In this document: positions 4,276 through 64,000 of the stretch, one piece after another | Numbering within the stretch: position 1 is the stretch's first letter | Layout: each line of letters opens with the position of its first letter | DNA from: Sphaerosporella brunnea | Taxonomy: Eukaryota; Ascomycota; Pezizomycetes; Pezizales; Pyronemataceae | Assembly (NCBI GenBank): GCA_008704415.1 | Contig: VXIS01000193.1 | Span: 1 to 64,000 of the forward strand | Direction: 5' to 3' | Length of the DNA stretch: 64,000 bases | Notes under the pieces: model-generated | What the model was told of the DNA's origin: nothing | The model's database searches: none | Seen by the model: the letters and a program-made list of their open reading frames with translations, nothing else | Program-made: the position numbers and the translations under genes

Positions 4276-7200
4276 TTACATCGGCATATTCGCCAACTCC
4301 GCATCAATCATCCGATCCAAAAACAGCCTGCGCTCGCCCTGGCACTCAGTCTGCAGTCTCTGCTCTACAAGCGCTCTCACTGTAAACGAATTAGCATTTA
4401 TCCTGTACCATCAAGTAACAAGAACGTACCTTGCTTCTTCGTGATGGTTTCCAAATCGACCTCGCGAAGGACATGTCGAATAGTTTCAACAATAGACTCA
4501 TCATCGGGGCCGCCTCCCATCCTCGTAAAGTCAACCTGGCTGACCGGTCGGCTCTGCGGGAATCCCAGAGGGGTAGTAGAGAGGCCACGAGGTGGCGGCG
4601 TGTGAACGCTAAGCAGGTTATCGCTGCTAGGCATACCAGTAGACAGCGGGCCGGGCTTGCCCTGTTGATGCCCGCCGTCCTGCCAATAGTCACCGGTGCT
4701 CATTCCACCCATCGACATCAGGCGCTGGTGCTGGCCCTGGTCAGGAACAGCCGTCATATTAGTGTATGCAGAGTAAGTGGAATGCCTGTTCCCAAGCATT
4801 GCTGGAGACCGAGGGGGCATGTAAGGCTGGCCACCCATGTTCGGAAGCCCTGTGAGAATAGTGGATGCAGGCTTCACGGAGGAATACATCGAGTGCATGT
4901 CGTCCATCTCGTAAGCGTCGTATCCGTTGTCACCAAATTTCTCGGTTCCACCACCGCCGCGGCGTCCAGGCAGCTTGTTTTTTGTGGCGTACTCGTCCCA
5001 GGTTTGCAGAGGGATGCTCTTCGGATCGAAAGGCGGCTCCACGGTGGCAACGATTTTCTTTGCTCCTGTTTCTCCAACGACAATACGTGTGCTACCCCAC
5101 GAGAAATCGTCTTGTGCCCAGAAAGAGTAGATGGGTAGAACGAAGGAGTAGATCGGGAAAGCGATGATGTAGATGATCATCCACCCAACGTGCTGCCACT
5201 GCCGCTTGACGATGAAGATGACAGCTTGCAGACCGTACACACCAGCAATCATTGCCAACGACAGATACGGGAAAGGGCCAGTCTTAGTGGCGATAACGTA
5301 TATGAGATAACCCAAGTAGATGCAGGTGGCAGGAAGAATGATCGTACCTGAAAACCATTAGCAAAGGCGATACGACGGGCAATTGGCATTTGCCTGCACG
5401 TACCGAAGAGATCAAGGAACACGACGAATCTCATCGAAAAGAGACAGAAACCACACATCTCCTCAAGGAACATGAGCTCAGCCAAGTTGTGGACGGTCGA
5501 GTTGATCCAACGACGTCTCTGAGACAGCAAAACGCTCCAGCTTTCGGGTGCAGCAGTCATGGCGTATGCATCGGGCACAAACTTAAAGCTCATGTTGGGG
5601 AAGTGTTTGGTCATCAGTGTGGTTAGGTAACGGTCCTCACCCAAGGACAGCAGGTTCTTTTTGTGCAGCGTGTCGACAATTCCGTCAGAGTATTCATCAA
5701 TGACCTTACTCGATATGATGAGAGGGCGACCTTTATCAGCTGTTCTCAGTCGATACATGCAGAAACTGCGAAAGTTAGCACACCAGCAACAACGATACAG
5801 TAACCATATCCTTACCATCCAGGCAAACAAGTGACGGATCCGAACAAACTCTCAAAGGCCTTGGCAAGGTGGTGGGAAATGTAGTATCTGCCAAGGGTCA
5901 GTGGATGGATTTCCAGAGCGATGTTGTTGACTGAACATACTCATAGACCTGAATCATGGTCCACCAAGAACGCTCCTCGTTTTCAAGACTAGTTTCACCA
6001 CAGATACCTGCAATCTTTGCATCGTGCGCACATGCTGCAACCAACCGGTTTAGGGCATCTTCCTTGACGCTAGTATCAGCGTCGACCATGAGGATATACT
6101 CATATAGCTCCGGATCGACACCGATAATGTTGTTGATCTGATGGAACATCTCGAGTTGCAACGGTGACATGGGAGTACGATGGTGAACCTTGTTCAAGAA
6201 ATCAAGGACAAGAACCTGAGAATCACGCTTTCCACGATTACCGGGCTTCGTAGCCTCAGTTGGCTTGCCGCATTTGACCACGACGATGTAGGGAACAACG
6301 CAGCCCTCATATTCGTACAATCCGGAGTAGACCTTTCCGTAGTTGAGTTGAGCATTGCCTTCACCGACACTCTTAAACGGCAGTGCAGGTGGGTCAACCT
6401 TGGGGTCGACGCCGAGAATCTCAAGCACGATATTGGGCGTAGGTCGGTCATTGCCGCCTCCGACAACCATACCGTCACAGATAACGAACAACAATTTTCT
6501 CTTGTTGTCATAGTTGAGAGCAGTCAATGAGTCCAGTGCCTTGCGCAGTTGATCCTCGCCCTCGGTATATGCTGGGACCTGGCAGATAACGAACTTGTCC
6601 TGCTGCGCCGGACGACGCTTGGTACCGAGCTGGAGAGCTGCCAAAAACTTGACCAGGATGACCGCACACATCATTGCGGCGAAACCGAGGAGAACGTAAC
6701 CACTGGCCTGGCATCTGGGACCGTATCGGAAGTCGACCTTTCCCACATAGAACATGTTTTTCAGACAGCGCATGTTCGGTGCCTTAGTGGTGGAGTTAAT
6801 GTTCTTGTTGTACATGGCGGTGATATCTGACCCAGGGTTTTGCTGGAAGAGATCCTCTAGGCCGCTGTCCAAGAAGCGATACTCAGCAGCATTGTTGAAC
6901 ATCTCAGCCGTGTAAAAGTAATCAGTCAAGTCGAAGACTTCGTCGTTGATGATAGCCCAGGGCTTGTTGTACGCAACTCCCTGCTTCTTGATCTGGTTCT
7001 TGTCCCATACGAGATTTCCAGTCCAGTACTCTTTCATTCTCGGGAGGAACGTTTGAGCGTACCAATCCGGATTGTGCAGAGCGGAGGTGATGAATGGAGT
7101 CTGGCTTCCTGACCAGTGCACAGCAGTGGGAACTGACTGGGCATTAGTGTCGTTGTATTGCAGCTTGAAGGCTTTATCGGTGACGAGTTCAGGACATCCC

Positions 7201-9802
7201 AAATAGAAGAGAGGAGGGAAATACGGGCTGAGGTCTTGCCCAGCGAACTCGAGCATGGCTTCTTTCGTGGTATCTTGGCCGGTAATGTCACTGTGCTGGA
7301 GTGTATAGAAACTCGTAATGTCGTACACTTGACCGTGAATGCTGACCCAGAAATCGTTCTCGCCTTGATGCCTCGCTACATTATTGCGGGACCAAGCTTT
7401 GTCGATATCGGGACACAGCAGTCTCGCAAAAATGACAATCCAGAAAATAATAAGGGCGTTCAAGAAGAAGATCAACCACACAAGAACCAGTTTTTCTCTC
7501 CATGCCATTCGAACGTCCGGGCGTTTCATGCGGCCAATATATCTCAGCATGAAGCTGGGAATCCAGAAAGTCAAGGCCCACACAAAACCGACCCAAAGTT
7601 TTCGAGACGTTGTGACAGGGCGCTCCTCGATGTGAGTTTTTTCGCCGAGTTCAACATCACCGGGGGCGGTGTATTGGTTGGCTTCGTACTGACCGAGAAG
7701 GGTAGGTTGCTCTTCATGGCCTACGGGGGATGGCGAATTACCAGACATCGCGCTCGCCCGGAGAAGATGCTCTCTGGAAGCTGCCTGATCGTATGCCGCG
7801 GCATTCATTGGTGGGAAATAGCCACTTCCGTTTGTGTTGACGGCATATCTAGTGTCCATGGGCATTCCGCCCATGGCGCCCATAGCGCCCAATCCCATCA
7901 TTCCTGGCGCGACACCTGGTTGCTTGATGTCGAGCATGTTTTCCGCCTCCCACCAGCAAGGCTCGCGCATCCACACGCGCTCGTTGCCCACCACGACCTC
8001 ACCGTTGCTCCAGCCGCGCTCGAGCACCCAGCTTTCAACGCCATCTCGTCCACCAGAGCAACCCAATACCGCATATCGTACTGCAAACTCGTCGAAGTCG
8101 AAATCGGCGGTGAAGTCGATTCTCTTATTGCGTCGGTTTGCCCACTCTGGTAACCGCCAAGTTCTCAGTTGCCGGCTCACCGAAGAAGCCGACCAGGGCT
8201 GGCTTTGAGAATGCAAATCATCGGTAGGTAGAACACCGGCTGTGGGACACAGATTTAGGTGGTACCAGGCTCTGCTTGCGGCGAGCAGTTGCGAAACGTC
8301 TAGTCGCACAGTAGCCGGAGATCGGCCGAATTCAGCGGGGAATAAGACCTCTTTGAGGAATCCACCGTCTTCCACCTCTCGACCCGCCTTCTCGATTATT
8401 TGCTCTCTTCGGTCCTGCTCGTACTCGCGTTCTCGACCCATGCCGACCAAGCAGGCAGTCTCGGCGTCGCCCCAAGCCGCCTTCATTTCCCGAACAACAG
8501 TGCTGCTAGCGTTCGGCACGGGGACACCGTCGGTCTTCATTTCAATGTTGAGGCCACTTTCATCGTCGAAAACACCCTTCAAGCAAACGGCTCTTGCTAA
8601 TTTTTCGTTGGGCAACTCCAAAATCGTGATTTGAACGGTGTCACCTTCCTGGCTTCCGTCTGAGTCGGTGGCAGCATCTTTCCGTGCGGCGAAGTCCGCT
8701 ACGATCGCCTCGTTGGCCTTTGTGATGATCCACTCAACAACGAGTTCGTAGACGGTGCCAATAAAATGTTCACGTTCACTGTCGCCCATTCTCTTCGCCA
8801 ATACTTCGGGGTCAACACCGAGGAGACCAGCGACATCGCTACACACTTCATCCACTACCTCTTCATCGACTAAGAGACCGACAGCGTTTCCAAGTTTTAG
8901 GATACCAGCAAGGACTGAAAGCAATCCACGCAGCATGCCACCCTTGATTCCGACGGCCCTCAAGTTGGTTCTCCAGTCTTCCGCCGCGGCGGTATCGTCG
9001 GCGGTAGGGAGGAAATTTGGGAGAGTATAGGTGTTGCTGCGGGCAAGAAGGGTGTACTTGTCTGGACTCTGCAGTCCCAGCCCCTGCCTCTCCGCAGGCG
9101 TCGATACCGCCGACAACAAATAATAGAAAACATCGAAAGCGCGGTAGCCGGGCTCGGCGGGTATGTGAAGAAGACCGTTCTCGACAGCCAAGCCAGCATC
9201 AGAGAGCGAAATATGAGCACCTGAAATTGCGCCGGACAGCGAAATCTGAACAGAGACTGCAAGTCCGCGATGGAATGGTAGGGAGAACGGTGCTTCGGGC
9301 GTGAGGCAATTGGTAAAGGAGTGGATGAGGTTGAGGCAAGTATTCAAGAGGTCGGGCGCGGCTGGAAGGGTTGACAAAACAGGCAGAAGGAGAGACGGCG
9401 ACGGCGAATGCAAAGACCTAGAAACTGGGCGTCAGCAAGGAGAGAGAGAGAACGCTCCAATTACCGGGAATCCCGGCTCGGCACGCCCAAAGCCTGAGGA
9501 TCTTTCACTTACGTCAAGACGATTGTCTGGTCCTCTGCCCGTCGTCGTGCATGCTCCCAGGCTCTCATCCCCAGCTCCTCGTCAAATATCCCTATAAACT
9601 CGCTACCACCTCTGGGAGAACTCGCATTTACCACCACGGACGTGGCAGAGTCTAGGGGATACACAGCGCCGGAGAGATATGCATTATGAAGCGCCGAAAG
9701 CAGCGAGGACGTCGTGAGGGTGCCTGGTTGATTCGATTGCATGCCGCCGTACGGGGCAGCCGAGGTAGTCGAATAAATCGACTGACGATTGGAGAACGAC
9801 AT
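4276..9802 (-). CDS. csmB: Class VII chitin synthase with P-loop-less myosin-like domain
   Basis: The product polymerises UDP-N-acetylglucosamine into chitin at the plasma membrane and hyphal tips. Six exons (9802-9513, 9417-5941, 5887-5816, 5765-5404, 5347-4430, 4379-4276) give 1740 aa. Order: divergent myosin-motor-like domain (about 1-600) with no GESGSGKT P-loop; transmembrane pair; cytochrome-b5-like domain; glycosyltransferase-2 chitin synthase core with EDRYLTT and QRRRW (about 1362-1366); C-terminal membrane helices; Gly/Pro-rich linker; DEK_C-like end. The lack of a P-loop separates class VII from class V. The start is the ATG at 9802; an in-frame TTG 21 bp upstream is not used. All junctions keep frame and splice sites are GT-AG. 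It is head to head with the class V gene, the usual ascomycete arrangement. The symbol follows Aspergillus usage. Confidence 0.95.
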
Positions 9803-12351: not shown

Positions 12352-15300
12352 ATGGCACAACCGCCGCCTCAATCACAACCATCTTTGCCGTCGTTGCCGT
12401 CGCATTTGCAAAGTGATACGCACATCACCGCCCATCTAGCCTCGCGGTTCCATCTCTCGCTGCCGACAGCGACTCTCAATTCTCAGGCGATTGTTTCGAT
12501 AAACACCTTCTCATCTCCCAATGTGGTCGGCGTGGAGCTCGATAGCATGGCCAGCAGGATGTGGCGGCGTCTCGGGGGACGGGGGGAGAACCAGGTTGCC
12601 GTGTTCCTGTGAGTATTGTCGATTGCGGGTGTCAGCTTTGTTTGGGGCATCGTTGACGTTCTGTCTTACAGGGGAGAGTCCGGATCCGGAAAGACAACAC
12701 TGCGCTCGCACTTGCTGTCTTCATTGTTAGCATTTACTTCAACTCCTCTTTCGCACAAGATCTCGCTTTTCACTTATCTCTTCGACACCTTGACCACGAC
12801 GAAATCTCTCACCACGCCCACCGCTTCCAAGGCAGGATTGTTCCTCGAGCTTCAGTACGACGGTGTCTCGCAAACCCTGATCGGTGCCAAGTTGCTTGAT
12901 CATCGTCTCGAGCGCTCTCGCATCACCAACATTCCTACGGGAGAGCGAAACTTCCATGTCCTGTATTATCTTCTTGCGGGGACGTCGGATGCGGAGAAGG
13001 AGCATTTGGGACTCAAGAACGCGGCCACTGCCGCCTCCAACAAACACGGTGGTGACGTGGGTAAGGCAGGCCAGAAGAGGTGGAAGTATCTAGGTCATCC
13101 CACTCAGCTCAAGGTCGGTATCAATGATGCGGAAGGGTTCCAGCACTTCAAGACTGCTTTGAGAAAGCTGGAATTCCCACGCAATGAGATTGCCGAGATC
13201 TGTCAAGTGCTCGCCTCCGTCCTGCACCTCGGTCAACTCGAATTCTCAAACAGCCATGCTACACTAGCCGACGGTAACGAATCTGGCGCGATTGAAGGTG
13301 GTGATCAAATAGTAGTGGTTCGCAACAAAGACGTCCTCGGAATCATCGCGGCGTTCCTTGGCGTCCCTCAAGACGGGCTGGAAAACAGTCTCGGATACCG
13401 AACCAAGACACTGAACCGGGAGAGGGTTACGATCATGCTCGACGCCAAAGGCGCTAGAGCCCACGCGGATGAACTCGCCCGAACGTTATACTCCCTCCTC
13501 GTTGCCTGGATCATTGAGTCCTGCAACGAGCGTCTCTGCGCTGTCGAGGACTCGATTGCGAATACTATTTCCATCATTGACTTCCCCGGTTTCTCACAAA
13601 CCTCGACCACTGGTAGCACTCTTGACCAATTGCTCAACAATGCGGCGACCGAGAGCTTGTACAACTTCTGCTTACAAAGCTTTTTCGATAAGAAAGCGGA
13701 ACTTTTGGAGAGCGAAGAAGTCGCCGTTCCCGCGACTAGCTACTTCGACAATTCGGATGCCGTACGTGCTCTACTGAAGCCGAGCAATGGCCTACTCAGC
13801 ATTTTGGACGATCAAACCAAGCGTGGGCGGACCGACGTGCAGTTTTTGGAGAGTCTGAAAAAGAGGTTTGAGACGAAGAGCAATCCTGCCATCAGCATCA
13901 GTGGTGCGGCAAACAGCTTCACTATCAAGCATTTTGCCGGTGAGATCGACTACCCTATTACTGGTCTCATCGAGCAGAACAGCGAGATCATCTCTGCCGA
14001 TCTGATGAACCTTTTCCGAAGCACGACTAGTTCCTTCATTACCGACTTGTTTTCTAGCAAGGCGGTAACTACCGTTCACCATCCTCGCGAAAAGACAGCC
14101 ATCATGCAAGGTCAAATCTCCTCTCGACCATTGCGAATGCCCAGCGTTATGAGAAAGAAGGGTGAGAAGCAGAGCAGTAAATCGGAACCCAAGGAGAACA
14201 CATTGCTTGATCAGGGTGCCGCTGGTCAGTTCGTCGGCGCATTGGACACTGTGACAAGATCCTTGACTGGAACAAACACAAACCCATACTTCATATTTTG
14301 TTTGAAGCCCAACGACCGCCGAATCGCCAACCAGTTTGATTCCAAGTGTGTGAGAACTCAAATACGCACTTTGGGTATCGCAGAGATCTCTCAACGAGTC
14401 AAAAACGCCGATTTCTCCGTTTTCCTACCTTTCGGAGAATTCCTTGGCCTTGCCGAGGCTGAGAGCATCATAGTTGGCAGTGAAAGGGAAAAGGCCGAGA
14501 TGGTCGTGACGGAACGGGGCTGGCAACCTAATGAAGCCCAAGTAGGAGCGACTGGTGTCTTCTTGAGCGAGCGATGCTGGTTCGAGGTGGCACAGACGGG
14601 CGACTCCGTGCCACGAGGTGCTCATGCTTATGCGGCGGATCCTGAAGATGGTGATGGTCCGCTGACCCCGGTGGGTGAACCTGGAGGTGCATCTGGAGGG
14701 GGCCTATTCAGTGGTTCGGACTCCAGAGTGAGGCTAATTCCCGGTCAGAGCCCTTCCTCCGGGCTTGGATCTCATATCTACGGCTCTGGCGGCAAGGGCG
14801 GCTATTTCGCAAAGTCGGACGACTTACGATCCGAAGCCGCGGCGTCTGCATTCAATTCTGGTGACATGTTCCGTAACTTCGACACCCGACAACAGATGGC
14901 GGAGAAAGGCCAGGCAGCGCGCGAAGAGGAAGTCGAAGAGCTATCGGTGTCTGGATCGCGCAAGCGGTGGATGTTCGTGGTATGGATGTTTACCTGGTTC
15001 ATTCCGGACTTTCTGATCAGGTGGGTTGGTCGCATCAAACGGAAAGATGTTCAGCTCGCTTGGCGTGAGAAGCTCGCCATCAACTTGATGATTTGGTTAA
15101 TGTGTGGCATTGCGGTTTTCTTCCTCGGTACCTTGATCCGAAATCCCTCTATCATGCTTATCGCTGACCTCCATAGTTGTATTCCCGAACTTGATCTGTC
15201 CCAAGCAGAATATCTTCACCCTTTCGGAACTTTCTACTCATGACGGCGGTAAAAACCACATCGAATCCGATGCCTATATCGCCATCCGTGGTGTCGTTTT

Positions 15301-18129
15301 CGATCTTACAAACTTCATACCTTCCCACTATCCCAACATCATCCCAAAGAAGTCTTTGCTGAACTACTCTGGAAGGGATGCTACGAATCTGTTCCCTGTG
15401 CAGGTTTCAGCCCTTTGTGCTGGAGTGGACGGTATAATCAACCCTGCGGTCCAACTCAACTACCAGGGGACGAACACCTCTCAGGACTTAACGTTGGACA
15501 GGAATGCCAAATATCACGACTTCCGGTACTTCACCAATGACTCCCGGCCTGACTGGTTTTACGAGCAAATGATGGTCATGAAAGCCAACTTCAGAAAGGG
15601 AGATATAGGATACTCCGCCAAAGACGTTGCGCGAGAAGCCAACAACCAGGGCAAAGACATGGCTATCATCGGGGACAAGGTCTATGACATGACTCAGTAC
15701 AATCAGGGTGGACGAAGGATAATATTCCCTACCGATCAGAAAAATACCGATGCATCGGGCATCAACGTCGACTTCATGGATCCTCAAGTGGCGAATCTCT
15801 TCGCTGGTCGCAAGGGCCAGGATATCACCAAATACTGGGAGACTCTTAATTTGACTCCCGTTATCAAGGACAGAATGATGACTTGCTTGAACCGTCTTTT
15901 CTACATTGGAAAGGTTGACACCCGAAACTCCACCCAGTGTCAATTCGCTCGGTATCTCTTGCTTGCTATCTCAATCGTCCTGGTCTCGGTTATTGGTTTC
16001 AAATTCTTTGCCGCGCTTCAGTTCAGGAAGAAAAACATGCCTGAGAGTCTGGACAAGTTCATAATGTGCCAGGTGCCGGCTTACACCGAGGACGAGGAAT
16101 CGCTGCGAAGGGCCATCGATTCCGTAGCAAAAATGAAGTACGACGATAAGCGCAAACTGTTGATTGTTGTTTGCGACGGTATGATCATTGGTCAAGGAAA
16201 CGATCGCCCGACTCCTAGGATTGTTCTCGACATCTTAGGTGTTCCTGAGTCTGTTGACCCTGAGCCTTTGAGCTTCGAGTCACTCGGAGAAGGCCAGAAG
16301 AGGCACAACATGGGCAAGATCTATTCAGGATTGTATGAGGTACAAGGACACATCGTGCCATTCCTGGTTCTCGTGAAGGTCGGAAAGCCATCTGAGGTCC
16401 AGAGGCCTGGTAACCGTGGTAAGCGTGACTCTCAGATGGTAATCATGCGGTTCTTGAGCCGAGTACATTACAATGAGCCCATGAGTCCCCTTGAGCTGGA
16501 GATGCATCACCAAATTCGTAACATCATCGGCGTCAATCCGACGTTCTACGAATTCATCCTGCAAATTGATGCCGGTGAGTGATCTAATTTCCCTAGAATC
16601 AAGTACCTACTAATCGTTTCCAGATACTGTGGTTGCCCCGGATGCAGGTACTCGTATGGTTTCTGCCTTCTTGGCCGACACTCGTATCATTGCCCTCTGT
16701 GGAGAGACAGGTCTGAACAACGCGAAGCACTCGATGATCACCATGATTCAAGTGTACGAATACTTCATCTCCCACAATCTGGCGAAGGCTTTTGAGAGTT
16801 TGTTCGGTTCGGTCACCTGTTTGCCTGGATGTTTCTCCATGTACAGAATCCGTGCCGCCGAGACCGGAAAGCCCCTCTTTGTCAGTCGGGAAATCATCGA
16901 AGCTTATTCTGAGAACCGTGTCGACACTTTACATATGAAGAACCTTCTGCACCTTGGAGAAGATCGTTATTTGACGACACTACTTTTGAAGCATCACGGC
17001 CAGTACAAAACCAAGTTCATCTTCGATGCTCACGCTTCGACCATTGCGCCAGACTCCTGGGCTGTCTTCCTGTCGCAACGTCGCCGATGGATCAACTCAA
17101 CCATCCACAACCTTGCAGAATTAGTGCCAATGCAGCAGCTTTGCGGTTTCTGTTGTTTCTCGATGCGTTTCGTTGTCTTCCTCGATTTGCTCAGTACCAT
17201 CGTCGCACCTGTCACTGTTGGATACCTCGTCTACCTCATCTACATGGTTGCGACAGCTTCAACCCTAGTTCCTCTGTGGGCGTTCGTGTTGCTCGCCGCT
17301 GTGTACGGTCTGCAAGCAATCATCTTTATTATGCGACGCAAGTGGGAAATGGTATGTGGCTCTATCACTAGCTGCTTGAATTTATGCTGATGAAACAGAT
17401 TGGCTGGATGATCCTGTACATCGTTGCCATTCCAGTCTTCAGTTTCGCGCTCCCGCTGTACGCTTTCTGGCACATGGACGATTTCTCGTGGGGTAACACT
17501 CGTGTCGTCACTGGTGAGAAGGGTCAGAAGATCGTCATTTCCGACGAGGGCAAATTCGACCCCGCCAGCATCCCTCGCAAGAAGTGGGAAGACTATCAGC
17601 ACGAGTTGTGGGAGCAGCAAACCCAGCGCGGCCACGACGATACCCGGTCCGAAGTCTCGGGCTACTCCTATGGCACCAAGTCATACGCCCCTGCGTCTGA
17701 GTACGGCTACGGCGGTATGGGTATGGGCATGCCCGCGCCTCCTGGATACCAGAGCCGTCCTATGTCGCAGTTTGAGCTGCCCGTACACATGCCGGGCGCT
17801 AACAGCCGCCTCTCGCTTGCGCCTAGCGATATGATGTCGCAGCGCAGCGGCGGATACGGGCACCCAGATATGGAGCTGGCCGTATTTGATTTGCCGTCGG
17901 ACGATGCGTTGTTGGCGGAGATTCGGGAGATTTTGCGAACTGCAGATCTGATGACAGTGACGAAGAAGAGCATCAAGGCGGAGCTTGAGAATAGATTCGG
18001 AATGAACCTCAACGCCAAGCGGGCTTATATCAACTCAGGTATGTCCTTCTTTCCCCCTTTCGCCGCCCTGAATAGTTGGGCTAATTCAGGCTTGCAGCTA
18101 CGGAGGCGATTCTGGGCGGTAATTTATAG
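12352..18129 (+). CDS. csmA: Class V chitin synthase with myosin motor domain
   Basis: Membrane glycosyltransferase making chitin; the N-terminal motor aids delivery or retention at growing tips. Six exons (12352-12608, 12672-15127, 15177-16574, 16624-17351, 17399-18038, 18098-18129) give 1836 aa. Motor domain about 1-780 with an intact P-loop (GESGSGKT, residues 87-94, formed just after intron 1). Then a transmembrane pair, a cytochrome-b5-like domain, the chitin synthase core with EDRYLTT and QRRRW (1522-1526), C-terminal helices and a DEK_C domain whose last residues come from a 32-nt final exon. Introns are 47-63 nt, with CTGAC or CTAAT branch sites visible in most. The intact P-loop marks class V as opposed to the class VII neighbour. 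Confidence 0.96.
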
Positions 18130-18821
18130 ATTTTTTTGAATTGATGAGATGGTTGGGATGATGATTATTATATTAAAAAAGGCACGGAGTATGTTGATGT
18201 GCGATGTGGTAGGCAGGGAGTGGTAATTCAATTAGGGTTGATGTGATTATTGTTTTTTTTTCTCTCTGTTTTTTTCTCTGCATTGGTTTGGAGTATTGTA
18301 GTGCTGGTTTTTTTTCCCCTTTTTTCCGTTTTTTTGTTGATGGATTGAGGTCGTTGTTACGTGAAGTACTTATGTGAAGCGACTACGTATGCGGTATCTA
18401 ATAAATCATTGTTTGGACGTTATATATACATTGGAGTACTATAGCCACTCGAAATTGGCTTGAGTCGGGAGATACTGCTAGTAGTTGGGGAATGATGAGG
18501 TCCTCGATGTGACAGCGTGATTATGTATGGTTTTGGGGGATCCATCCAGGAGCTCAAGCGAAGGATGGCGGTTTGGGATGGGGGTTTTTTGTGTTGGGTT
18601 GCGACGACGCAGCCGGCTTTTGTTTTGTTTTAATCATATTGCATTTGGCCGCTTGCGGCCATGGCATTTAAAGTACAGAATCATCGCCGCCCCTAGGCAC
18701 AAGTCCTACTCTGGGGTTCGCTCCTCCGAAGGAAAAGAAAGCAAGGAAATTGCAAATGGAGAGAATATGTTAAGGAAAAAGGTGACAAGGAAAAGATACA
18801 CAAGCATAAACAGGTCTGACA
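18130..18821. other. 3' flank of class V chitin synthase
   Basis: AT-rich with many short T tracts (18250-18340). Presumed 3' UTR and terminator region. No gene seen. Confidence 0.5.
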
Positions 18822-23464: not shown

Positions 23465-24678
23465 ATGGCCTGCCTCGTACCGATATCGGAAAGAATAGCC
23501 TCGCTTTCGGATACCCATAAAGAAGTTCGCCAACCCACAGACCGCCTTACACTCGACCATTCAGCTAACGTGTTCAGTGCATGACCCTAATCACCCGCCT
23601 CTCCAAGCTCTCTGCACCCGGAAGCGAAGGCGAGACCGCGAGGAACGAGCTGGCACAGCTGATCCACCAGACCCTGCGAGAAGCAGAAACGGAGTATGAG
23701 CTGCTGGTCGACGAAGCTGAGACCGCGGGGGTCTCATCCCTCGTGTCGAAGACTGGCGAAGACCTCAAGATCGCCCGGCGACAATACCGCAAAGCTCTAT
23801 TGGCCGCTAAACACAACTCTGCGGCGGCCGATCGGGAAGCTCTATTTGCGAGCCGCCGGAAACAGACGGAAGGAAACGAAAAGGTGTCGCAGAAGGATAT
23901 ACTAGTCTCTGCTAGTAGCGACGTCACCGCTGCCCTGCGACGTACACAACATCTGCTCCAGAGTGAGCTCTCGCGTAGCCAATTCGCCAGCGATACGTTG
24001 GCACAGAGCACAGAAGCGCTGAAAGAGCTGAGCGAGAGATATTCGGCGTTTGATGATGTTTTGGGAAAGAGTAGGGAACTCATCAGAGATTTGGTCAAGA
24101 AAAACAAGAGTGATCGCTGGTACTTTGAGAAGGCAATTCAGTTACTGGTGGCTACCCTGATTTGGATCGTCATACGAAGACTCTTTTGGGGACCTATATG
24201 GCTGCTCGTTGTGTGGCCGTTGAAGACAGTATGGTGGATCTGTGCGAGTGTCGTAGGGTTGGGCATGGGCTCCGCAACGACAGCGGCGATCTCAACGGCT
24301 TCGGCGAGTGTGACCCGCCTAGTGGTTATGTCAAGTCCTGTTGTGGTGCGGGTAGAACCGATCGAACGTGCTGCACCGCCCCCACCAGTGGTGGCCCAGG
24401 AACGAGGGCAGGTAGTAAATGATATGGAGCCGGAGAAAGCGTCCCCACAGATGGATGCGCAGGATATGCGGGAGGTGGTCGGTAAGATCATCGACGACGG
24501 CGGCGAATCGACCACCATCATGAGGAATACCATGAGTCGGCGTTTTGAGGAGCCACCAGAGCATGAGGAAACAGGCATCCCGGTAGTTGACGAACAACCC
24601 GCGCAGGAGACAGTACCGGACGTCAGGGCGGCGGAGGCGGCGGCGGAAGCAGCAGCGGAGGCAGTTCATGAACTATAA
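23465..24678 (+). CDS. sec20: Sec20-type Qb-SNARE for Golgi-to-ER retrograde fusion
   Basis: Sec20 sits in the ER membrane with Ufe1, Use1 and Sec22 and receives COPI vesicles. The main exon begins at 23578. An upstream ATG at 23465 adds 21 residues (ERIASLSDTHKE region) through an intron 23525-23577, with a weak GTTCGC donor but a good GCTAAC branch and CAG acceptor; the heptad pattern continues across the junction. This gives 386 aa. If the intron is not real, the start is the ATG at 23581 (365 aa). Order: helical N-terminal region, SNARE-like coiled coil (about 120-200), a long hydrophobic hairpin-like segment rich in Trp (about 205-255), and a lumenal tail with an AEAAAEAAAEA repeat. The membrane segment pattern matches fungal Sec20. 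Confidence 0.8.
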
Positions 24679-62329: not shown

Positions 62330-64000
62330 TCACCATCTGGCTCTACTCCTCCATCTCCCCAATCGCGACATCAACATTTGCCACCACTTCTTCTTCTTCT
62401 TCTTTTCCTCCTTCTCCTTCTCCTTCTCCTTCCCCTTCTCCTCCTCCTTCACCTCCTTCACCTCCTCCTTCACCTCCTTCTCCTTCCCCTTCTCCTCCTC
62501 CATCACCTCATTCTCCTCCTCCTTCTCCTCCTCCTTCTCCTCCTCCTCGTCCTCCTCTTCCTCCTCCTTCTCCTCCTTCTCCTCCTCCTTCTTCTTCTCC
62601 TTCTCCTTCTCTTTCTCCTCCTCCTCCGTCTGCTCCTCCTCCTTCTCCTCCTCCTCCTCCTCCTCTTCGTCATCTAGGCAAAACTAGCTGAATGTCAATC
62701 ATAGCACCTACAGAGAGGGCAGCCAGAAAATGGATCACATACAGTCTATAGCGCAAAAAGAGTCAACCTTCAAACAATGGCTGCTGCAAGGAGAGAGGCG
62801 AAGCACATTACTTACTTCCTGCGGAGAAAAAATAAGTCGAAAGCCAGCAACACGTTGACGAGCGAGGCGGTGAAACGATTCACTTACAAGCTGCAATCCA
62901 ATACAAGCCGACCCATCAGCGATGAGGTGGACAAGAAGCTAACTGGAAGGGTTCCACCTACAAACTGCGACGCACGAGGGACAAGGATCAGCAATAGCGA
63001 GCATGAGGTCTGAAAAACAGAATGCGGTGCACTTACCCCCTGAAACAAAAAGACCCGAAAGAGAGCCAAAAATTATTAACAAGCCAGACGGATGGTAATG
63101 CGGTTCACTCACAGCCTACAAACGTAACGAGGGGCGAAGTTCAGCTATCATACAAAAACAAACCGTTAATTTGGGAGTGGTTCACGTACAATCTACACCG
63201 CAACAGCATCCGGATTTCAACCCCGTCTCGGCGTAGGGGGCGCGGTGGTTCCATTCACTTACTCTCTGCATGGCAAAGTGAGCGAAACGTCAGCCATATC
63301 GTCTCAACTAGGGAGGCGGGAGCGGGGATTCCATTCACTTACCTCCTGCATTGCAAAGCGAGCCGAACGTCAGCCATATGGCCTCAACCAGGAGCGGTGG
63401 TTCCATCCACTTACGTCCTGCATTGCAAAACGAGCCGAACGTCAGCCATATCGTCTCAACCAGGGAGGCGGGAGCGTGGATTCCATCCACTTACGAGCTG
63501 AATTGCAAAGCGAGCCGAACGTCAGCCATATGGTCTCAACCAGCGAGCCGGAAGCGGGGATTCCATTTACTTACCTTCTGCATTGCAAAGCGAGCCGAAC
63601 GTCAGCCATATGGTCTCAACCAGGGAGGCGGAAGCGGGGATTCCATTCACTTACCACCTGCATGGCAAAGCGAGCCAAACGTCAGCCATATCGTCTCAAC
63701 CAGGGAGGCGGGAGCTGGGATTCCATTCACTTACGTCCTGCATTGCAAAGCGAGCCGAACGTCAGCCATATCGTCTCAACCAGGAGCGGTGGTTCCATTC
63801 ACTTACGTCCTGCATTGCAAAGCGAGCCGAACGTCAGCCATATCGTCTCATCCAGGAGCGGTGGTTCCATTCACTTACGTCCTGCATTGCAAAGCGAGCC
63901 GAACGTCAGCCATATCGTCTCAACCAGGGAGGCGGGAGCTGGGATTCCATTCACTTACGTCCTGCATTGCAAAGCGAGCCGAACGTCAGCCATATGGCCT
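62330..64000 (-). CDS. 3' part of a putative gene built from 3-nt mini-exons (partial)
   Basis: Minus strand. Seventeen successive AG-NNN-GT cassettes: GAC 63959-63961, GAC 63879-63881, GAC 63807-63809, GAC 63735-63737, GTG 63655-63657, AAG 63575-63577, CTC 63495-63497, GAC 63415-63417, GAG 63343-63345, AGA 63263-63265, ATT 63190-63192, GCT 63113-63115, GGG 63037-63039, TTT 62962-62964, CTT 62888-62890, GAA 62816-62818, ACT 62743-62745. Introns between them are all 69-77 nt. The last intron (62674-62742) leads to a terminal exon in the GAG/AAG block. Acceptors are CAG or TAG. Donors are GTAAGT or one-base variants. CTGAC/CTGAT/TTGAC branch-like sites lie about 17-26 nt before most acceptors. 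Read in phase 0 the cassettes spell DDDDVKLDERIAGFLET without a stop; the two other phases meet TGA. Phase 0 enters an Arg-rich tail. Frame and 5' end are unresolved because the array leaves the window. Confidence 0.6.
62374..62673 (-). repeat. GAG/GAA/AAG trinucleotide-rich block in the terminal exon
   Basis: 300 bp made almost only of CTC, CTT and TCC on the plus strand (GAG, AAG, GGA on the minus strand). It reads as poly-Arg, poly-Glu/Lys or poly-Gly/Glu depending on minus-strand frame. The Glu/Lys frame stays open for 114 codons from 62671 to the stop at 62330-62332 and ends in a non-repetitive basic, Trp-rich tail (WWQMLMSRLGRWRS); the Arg frame stops at 62503-62505. Confidence 0.85.
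63241..64000 (-). repeat. 72/80-bp tandem repeat array carrying the mini-exons
   Basis: Nearly identical units of 80 or 72 bp; the two lengths differ by a short indel in the intron (GGAATCCCAGCTCCCGCCTC versus GGAACCACCGCTCC). Each unit holds GTAAGTGAATGG, a TGGTTGAGACGATATGG core, GGCTGACGTTCGGCTCGC and TTTGCAATGCAG plus three exon bases, read on the minus strand. Units left of 63241 are older and diverged. The array continues past 64000. Confidence 0.93.

Follow-up and report, generated by a model that had tools for sequence, protein, structure and literature searches.

The minus strand at the right edge of the window probably holds the 3' end of a NACHT-ankyrin (NLR-type) gene of Sphaerosporella brunnea, in which the C-terminal tail of the protein would be encoded by 29 predicted exons of one codon each, reshaped by duplication and loss of units and by selection on the codons; this reading was made from genomic DNA. 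The window is the whole stretch of DNA that was analysed, that is the first 64,000 bases of contig VXIS01000193.1 (90,721 bases, below C105) in an assembly of 50.6 Mb and 640 contigs. An extract of PMC6908789 describes S. brunnea as an ectomycorrhizal ascomycete and gives a genome of 51.6 Mb in 872 contigs, unlike the assembly analysed here.

Array layout and splice sites

Seventeen cassettes of exactly three bases, each between an acceptor-like and a donor-like site, are present on the minus strand at 62743-63961, as stated in the initial annotation, and the size of 69-77 nt that it gave was borne out for the 16 introns separating them. In reading order the codons are GAC (four times), GTG, AAG, CTC, GAC, GAG, AGA, ATT, GCT, GGG, TTT, CTT, GAA and ACT. 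The predicted features are as follows.

62330..62683, minus strand, predicted terminal exon, coding part, from reading frames and the match to the C35 paralogue, with inferred acceptor
62684..62742, minus strand, last array intron, GTATGT...CTAG, 59 nt (69 nt with the acceptor before 62673 of the initial annotation)
62743..62745, minus strand, predicted microexon ACT (T)
62816..62818, minus strand, predicted microexon GAA (E)
62888..62890, minus strand, predicted microexon CTT (L)
62962..62964, minus strand, predicted microexon TTT (F)
63037..63039, minus strand, predicted microexon GGG (G)
63113..63115, minus strand, predicted microexon GCT (A)
63190..63192, minus strand, predicted microexon ATT (I)
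63263..63265, minus strand, predicted microexon AGA (R)
63343..63345, minus strand, predicted microexon GAG (E), in the block of near-identical introns
63415..63417, minus strand, predicted microexon GAC (D)
63495..63497, minus strand, predicted microexon CTC (L)
63575..63577, minus strand, predicted microexon AAG (K)
63655..63657, minus strand, predicted microexon GTG (V)
63735..63737, minus strand, predicted microexon GAC (D)
63807..63809, minus strand, predicted microexon GAC (D)
63879..63881, minus strand, predicted microexon GAC (D)
63959..63961, minus strand, predicted microexon GAC (D), last before the window edge
C105:64033, minus strand, predicted cassette GCG, beyond the window edge
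up to C105:65360, minus strand, 11 cassettes above the LTR-bearing intron, going upstream GTG, CTC, TGG, GTG, CGC, TTT, GAA, AAG, CGG, CGA and ACA
C105:65429-67442, minus strand, NACHT-ankyrin exons of the array gene
C105:67247-67254, 8-base exon (ATCCTCAA) near the gene start, in the deposited protein model

Across the 17 introns from the first window cassette to the terminal exon, the donors are GTAAGT (13) and GTACGT, GTGAGT, GTAGGT and GTATGT (one each), and the acceptors are CAG (13) and TAG (4). Most of these introns have the branch-like site ascribed to them: 11 of 17 carry CTRAY at 12-45 nt from the 3' end, and 14 of 17 carry YTRAY. Chains of AG-N(k)-GT with a spacing of 50-110 nt were counted in the window; the longest had 17 members at k=3 on the minus strand, and at 20 other exon sizes the maximum was 6, seen at k=7 on the minus strand and probably the same array units read at an offset, with 1-2 otherwise. 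Genome-wide, the strict array pattern gave 31 matches, all in C105, its copy C419 and C35, and the reversed-pattern control gave 0. An Rfam scan of the window for intron-encoded RNA returned no match at gathering thresholds.

The array runs past the window edge: the seventeen cassettes are its 3' part, and 12 further cassettes stand at contig positions 64033-65360, bringing the C105 total to 29 three-base cassettes. Extension beyond 64000, as the initial annotation had proposed, recovered the rest of the array together with the upstream NACHT-ankyrin exons, and the predicted join at the array start leads from the last ankyrin exon into ACA-CGA-CGG.... Array introns are short and of fungal type, mostly 53-77 nt long. 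Among the C105 splice sites the first donor (GTTAAC) and the acceptor before TGG (GAAG) are weak, and a CTRAY site 12-45 nt from the intron end is absent in 9 of 30 introns. One intron, of 593 nt, carries an LTR (C105:64044-64495, just outside the window), which has 39 further scored copies of 97-98% identity, several of them paired about 7.8 kb apart; with an LTR at this place the C105 copy could be damaged.

The region C419:526-9900 corresponds to C105:64574-73946 without a single mismatch, two gap openings being the only differences, and a further 3558 bases beyond it are identical; C419:1-26675 as a whole repeats C105:64047-90721, with no substitutions in the stretches compared. Both contigs diverge within the array, where C105 has the LTR and C419 has more cassettes up to its contig end. 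Since substitutions are absent from the stretches compared, C419 is as likely to be an assembly duplicate as a second array allele; were it a duplicate, the true C105 array would exceed 29 cassettes.

A simpler origin for the regular spacing would be an unspliced minisatellite, in which copying of one intron-like unit, AG-NNN-GT junction included, left the spacing behind as a relic, and Tandem Repeats Finder does call the right part of the array an 80/152-bp tandem repeat. The left end argues otherwise: its intron bodies had been described as almost unrelated, and the mean identity of the eight introns there (0.512) is indeed barely above that of shuffled sequence (0.488, range 0.475-0.509), yet AG-3-GT is kept throughout. 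With the evidence from paralogues and from codons given below, we hold a minisatellite to be very improbable.

Host gene and protein models

Above the C105 array lie exons of 1760 bases, 8 bases and, as first exon, 89 bases, the sum of which is a multiple of 3, so that every C105 cassette would be a whole codon (phase 0). These exons are 100% identical to the annotated S. brunnea protein FN846DRAFT_228488 (P0001), in which residues SGSST span both junctions of the 8-base exon. Pfam domains of this protein are NPHP3_N/NACHT (PF24883, E 1.4e-41; PF05729, E 4.3e-07), a winged helix and ankyrin repeats, the latter C-terminal to the NACHT domain (PF12796 at 544-607, E 1.6e-07). The protein begins with MNGTNYIHAQHNSFEGSTLNGGQHFHGSSG, which may resemble the amyloid-type signalling motifs of fungal NLR (STAND) receptors.

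The deposited C105 model reads on into the first intron of the array, where it ends with ...LLQVNRYL, and the public protein thus lacks the array; the deposited model of the paralogous gene on C35 (P0121) ends before the ankyrin repeats. No cassette-encoded residues were present in these two public S. brunnea models, and no S. brunnea model of the third array gene, on C65, was found among the matches listed. Pfam assigned no family to the C35 upstream exons, in which GHSFGGLIIKQ is a putative esterase-like motif. Among 120 homologues listed, 37 had the block before the array junction by a loose pattern, and in 32 of these 37 a Val (GT) occurs within the next three residues and the protein ends 6-31 residues after the block; these 32 endings look as if they were read-through into the same first intron. 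The remaining five include the Tuber melanosporum entry P0089, which continues past the junction with YMRSELNDLLPVRGTIGPSDSDVRELDQQQF and lacks the Val. Relatives of the C65 receptor, among the matches listed, were numerous in Trichophaea hybrida and Wilcoxina mikolae, and a large number bore the label 'partial'; these models may break off at such arrays too.

Such endings can also be taken at face value, as truncated products: the first array intron would be retained or the array skipped, the protein would end after the ankyrin repeats and the array would be regulatory or decaying. The annotated end ...LLQVNRYL inside the first array intron, the comparable ending in 32 of the 120 homologues listed and the LTR within the C105 array all agree with this. 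Gene callers seldom place 3-nt exons. Ends of this kind are therefore expected from gene-calling software; moreover, the codons are varied and contain no stop when read in the inferred phase, and the Tuber transcript-variant entry P0089 extends beyond the junction without the Val. A truncated product is accordingly rated unlikely, and a spliced tail is preferred.

Related arrays in the genome

Two further NACHT-ankyrin genes have the same layout with other intron families, their arrays standing directly after the ankyrin repeats. The C35 gene has 36 cassettes in phase 0; in the C65 gene at least 44 cassettes were read and array matches reach 93651, and because its last ankyrin exon breaks off after the second base of a codon, its cassettes would be in phase 2. 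That AG-3-GT is kept by other intron families at C35 and C65 speaks against a minisatellite. The C65 array DNA weakly matches arrays on two more contigs, listed here.

C138:20471-21200 and 23830-24150, further arrays of the same layout, 12 cassettes seen
C64:20185-20700, further array of the same layout, 8 cassettes seen

Donors in the C138 and C64 arrays are GTGAGT (GTAAGT once), and all 20 cassettes seen start with C. Host genes for these arrays were found neither among 61 NPHP3_N matches nor among the Ank_2 matches listed (part of 199); upstream of one C138 array, other sequence precedes two cassettes and no recognisable host exon was seen.

Arrays were found at 3 of 17 NACHT places (C105/C419 pairs counted once), which is a lower bound. 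The other 14 places, scanned for about 1.5 kb past the match (less at contig ends), showed no chain of three, and neither did an extra 1-3.2 kb at five of them (C28, C242, C1, C99 and C417) and at three further loci (C315, C33:18 kb and C256); since the flank of about 1.5 kb was too short to show the C65 array, other arrays may be missed.

Terminal exon

From 62683 the predicted terminal exon reads F-C-L-D-D-E-E..., is acidic and lysine-rich and stays open for 117 codons, ending ...SRLGRWRSRARW, with a TGA stop at 62330-62332. The acceptor chosen in the initial annotation (exon from about 62673) seems less suitable, as it opens a frame rich in arginine that meets a stop after 56 codons. The probable start of the last exon is 62683, with the acceptor CAGCTAG ten bases upstream of the earlier choice; it was placed there because F-L-E-x-F-C is common to the codon-by-codon readings of C105 (F-L-E-T-F-C) and C35 (F-L-E-Q-F-C-A-P-S-stop). 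The predicted join at this acceptor is ...TTT-CTT-GAA-ACT to TTTTGCCTAG, and the spliced C105 tail is predicted as LLQ-TRRKEFRVWLVADDDDVKLDERIAGFLET-FCLDDEEE....

For F-L-E-x-F-C in the two spliced readings, the local alignment score was equalled by 28 of 5000 shuffled tails, and five of seven identities at the anchored place occurred in 1 of 100,000 shuffles; the motif alone is not rare, as 3 of 360 proteins compared have it at an unrelated position. In C35, GAACAGTTCTGC lies undivided within one exon; in C105, GAA, ACT and TTTTGC are separate, and thus intron positions differ while most codons agree. Recovery of the same residues from two genes by codon reading again counts against a minisatellite.

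Codon and intron variability

Variability was compared in blocks of near-identical units with aligned introns, after removal of identical units and of the LTR intron (C105 with C419, n=19; C35, n=20; C65, n=31). Introns in the tested blocks are 88-93% identical. Mean exon pi was 0.58, 0.64 and 0.56 versus mean intron pi of 0.115, 0.077 and 0.073 (C105 with C419, C35 and C65, the order used throughout this section), and none of the three-column intron windows reached exon pi (0/67, 0/66 and 0/74). Unit pairs with introns at least 95% identical (17/171, 45/190 and 100/465) still had 0.37, 0.67 and 0.49 exon differences per base versus about 0.03 per intron base. The exon triplet is thus the most variable stretch and not, as a duplicated minisatellite would have it, equally variable. 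In an ungapped version the exon ranked 1, 9 and 5 among 49 windows, and it came second of 25 in both short stretches, on C138 and C64; the aligned version was preferred because the windows that outrank the exon in C35 and C65 seem to sit at indel-shifted register.

In all three arrays the least variable exon base was the wobble (codon third) position, although this position falls at the end of the exon in C105 and C35 but at its start in C65; agreement in three of three has a chance probability of about 0.04. Single intron columns matched or exceeded the wobble base in 4/69, 6/68 and 5/76 cases and the first exon base of C105 in 2/69, and none did so for the other exon bases. Synonymous codons were scarce, the near-identical blocks having 8 distinct codons for 8 amino acids (22 codons), 10 for 10 (24) and 9 for 8 (34); column shuffles were as low in synonyms in 14, 0 and 363 of 5000, figures that ignore unit relatedness and serve as a guide only. 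Read in the two other phases, C65 gave 11 codons for 6 amino acids and 13 for 6. With the diverged ends included, C105 had 19 codons for 12 amino acids and C35 had 16 for 14; as synonyms appear there, the no-synonym result is limited to the near-identical blocks. Absence of stop codons was considered as a test of phase and dropped as weak, the C65 cassettes being stop-free in all three phases. Together, the variability and codon tests fit selection on the encoded residues.

Introner-like introns are near-identical spliceosomal introns scattered over many genes, and neutral proliferation of such elements, with three-base leftovers between insertions, could account for near-identical introns in tandem in one gene. 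A scatter of near-identical introns over unrelated genes was not found for C105 or C35 array DNA among the best-scoring genome candidates, where the C35 array matched nothing but itself and the C105 array nothing beyond its own locus and the copy on C419. In addition, variability is higher in the three-base exons than in the introns, which is not how target-site duplications behave. Array introns share near-identity with introner-like introns but, unlike them, were seen in arrays only, separated by single codons; this origin is judged highly improbable.

The claim that splicing of 3-nt exons is under selection therefore finds support in so far as it concerns selection for one-codon exons, because nearly unrelated introns keep the spacing, because paralogous genes with other intron families share the layout and because codon variation is far above intron variation.

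Relation to known systems

The initial annotation had known of no gene of this kind, which is incorrect. In the extracts covered, PMC4986451, PMC10197012, PMC9815663 and PMC3689799 attribute to Iotti et al. 2012 (Fungal Biol 116:261) the finding that NACHT-ANK genes of Tuber melanosporum have dozens of 3-bp exons subject to alternative splicing. The T. melanosporum NACHT-ANK 'transcript variant 5' (P0089) matches the C105 protein with E 1.3e-140 and 43% identity over 96% of the query. As far as those extracts describe them, the Tuber genes resemble those of S. brunnea in being NACHT-ankyrin genes whose presumed recognition part, at the C-terminus, has many 3-bp exons, and they are homologous and of the same order, Pezizales; the family differs (Tuberaceae versus Pyronemataceae), and the S. 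brunnea microexons are predicted from sequence. Tens of 3-bp exon-like cassettes, as in Tuber, were found at sequence level in S. brunnea: 29 in C105, 36 in C35 and 44 read in C65. The passages on Tuber NACHT-ANK in the citing papers contain no mention of a comparison of codon with intron variability, and the literature search yielded no description of such arrays outside Tuber and none of microexons in Pezizales. The kind of gene is thus already known; new are its occurrence in another family, the extra genes and a codon-level test suggesting that codons were diversified one by one.

Fungal NLRs with highly similar repeats and few hypervariable positions are described in an extract of PMC9815663. 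According to it, those repeats share with the array near-identical units and hypervariable amino-acid positions in a presumed sensor domain; in those NLRs the conserved frame of a unit is itself coding sequence, whereas in the array the frame is intron and the variable codon is the only coding part. Microexons of animals, plants and Trichoderma, in the extracts that treat them, are likewise very short (3 bp in Drosophila homothorax), but they occur singly or spread over many genes, with no tandem array of dozens in one gene.

Proposed mechanism and significance

Two splice sites three bases apart would hardly be bound together, and fungal introns are short and likely recognised as introns. Array introns would accordingly be recognised as introns and removed one after another, each three-base exon being added in turn to a lengthening upstream exon. 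As the initial annotation pointed out, the frame would survive if any cassette were skipped, each cassette being one codon; one residue would be lost, and alternative splicing could widen the set of tails made from one gene. In the germ line, the recognition tail would likely be reshaped as intron-codon units are duplicated in tandem or lost and their codons come under diversifying selection, and the array layout likely lets this tail change one amino acid at a time. The receptor would sense non-self and trigger a cell response via its NACHT domain, as papers on fungal NLRs suggest. More tentatively, and with somewhat less than even confidence, we propose a general scheme in which the intron is the conserved repeat and the lone codon the hypervariable site, so that a receptor tail is held as intron-flanked one-codon cassettes that are duplicated, reordered and mutated singly, in several receptor genes, and further thinned by splicing in frame.

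Three-base exons are a challenge to models of splice-site recognition, and 29 to at least 44 of them in a row would lend themselves naturally to testing whether splicing can be sequential and purely intron-defined. In immunity, the arrays would offer receptor variation by single residues, with the unit boundary kept by introns. Since the gene models of S. brunnea and of related fungi seem to end at the first intron of an array, public protein sets likely lack this class of receptor tail. The wobble and codon tests are easily run and can be applied to truffle and other Pezizales genomes.

Neighbouring sequences

Two more NACHT-type regions, at C105:76422-77630 and 86710-88540, lie within about 22 kb of the array gene, which makes this contig arm an NLR cluster. 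In the window itself, two groups of large open frames in divergent orientation, at 4398-9413 (minus strand) and 12616-18139 (plus strand), resemble chitin synthases with an N-terminal myosin-like part.
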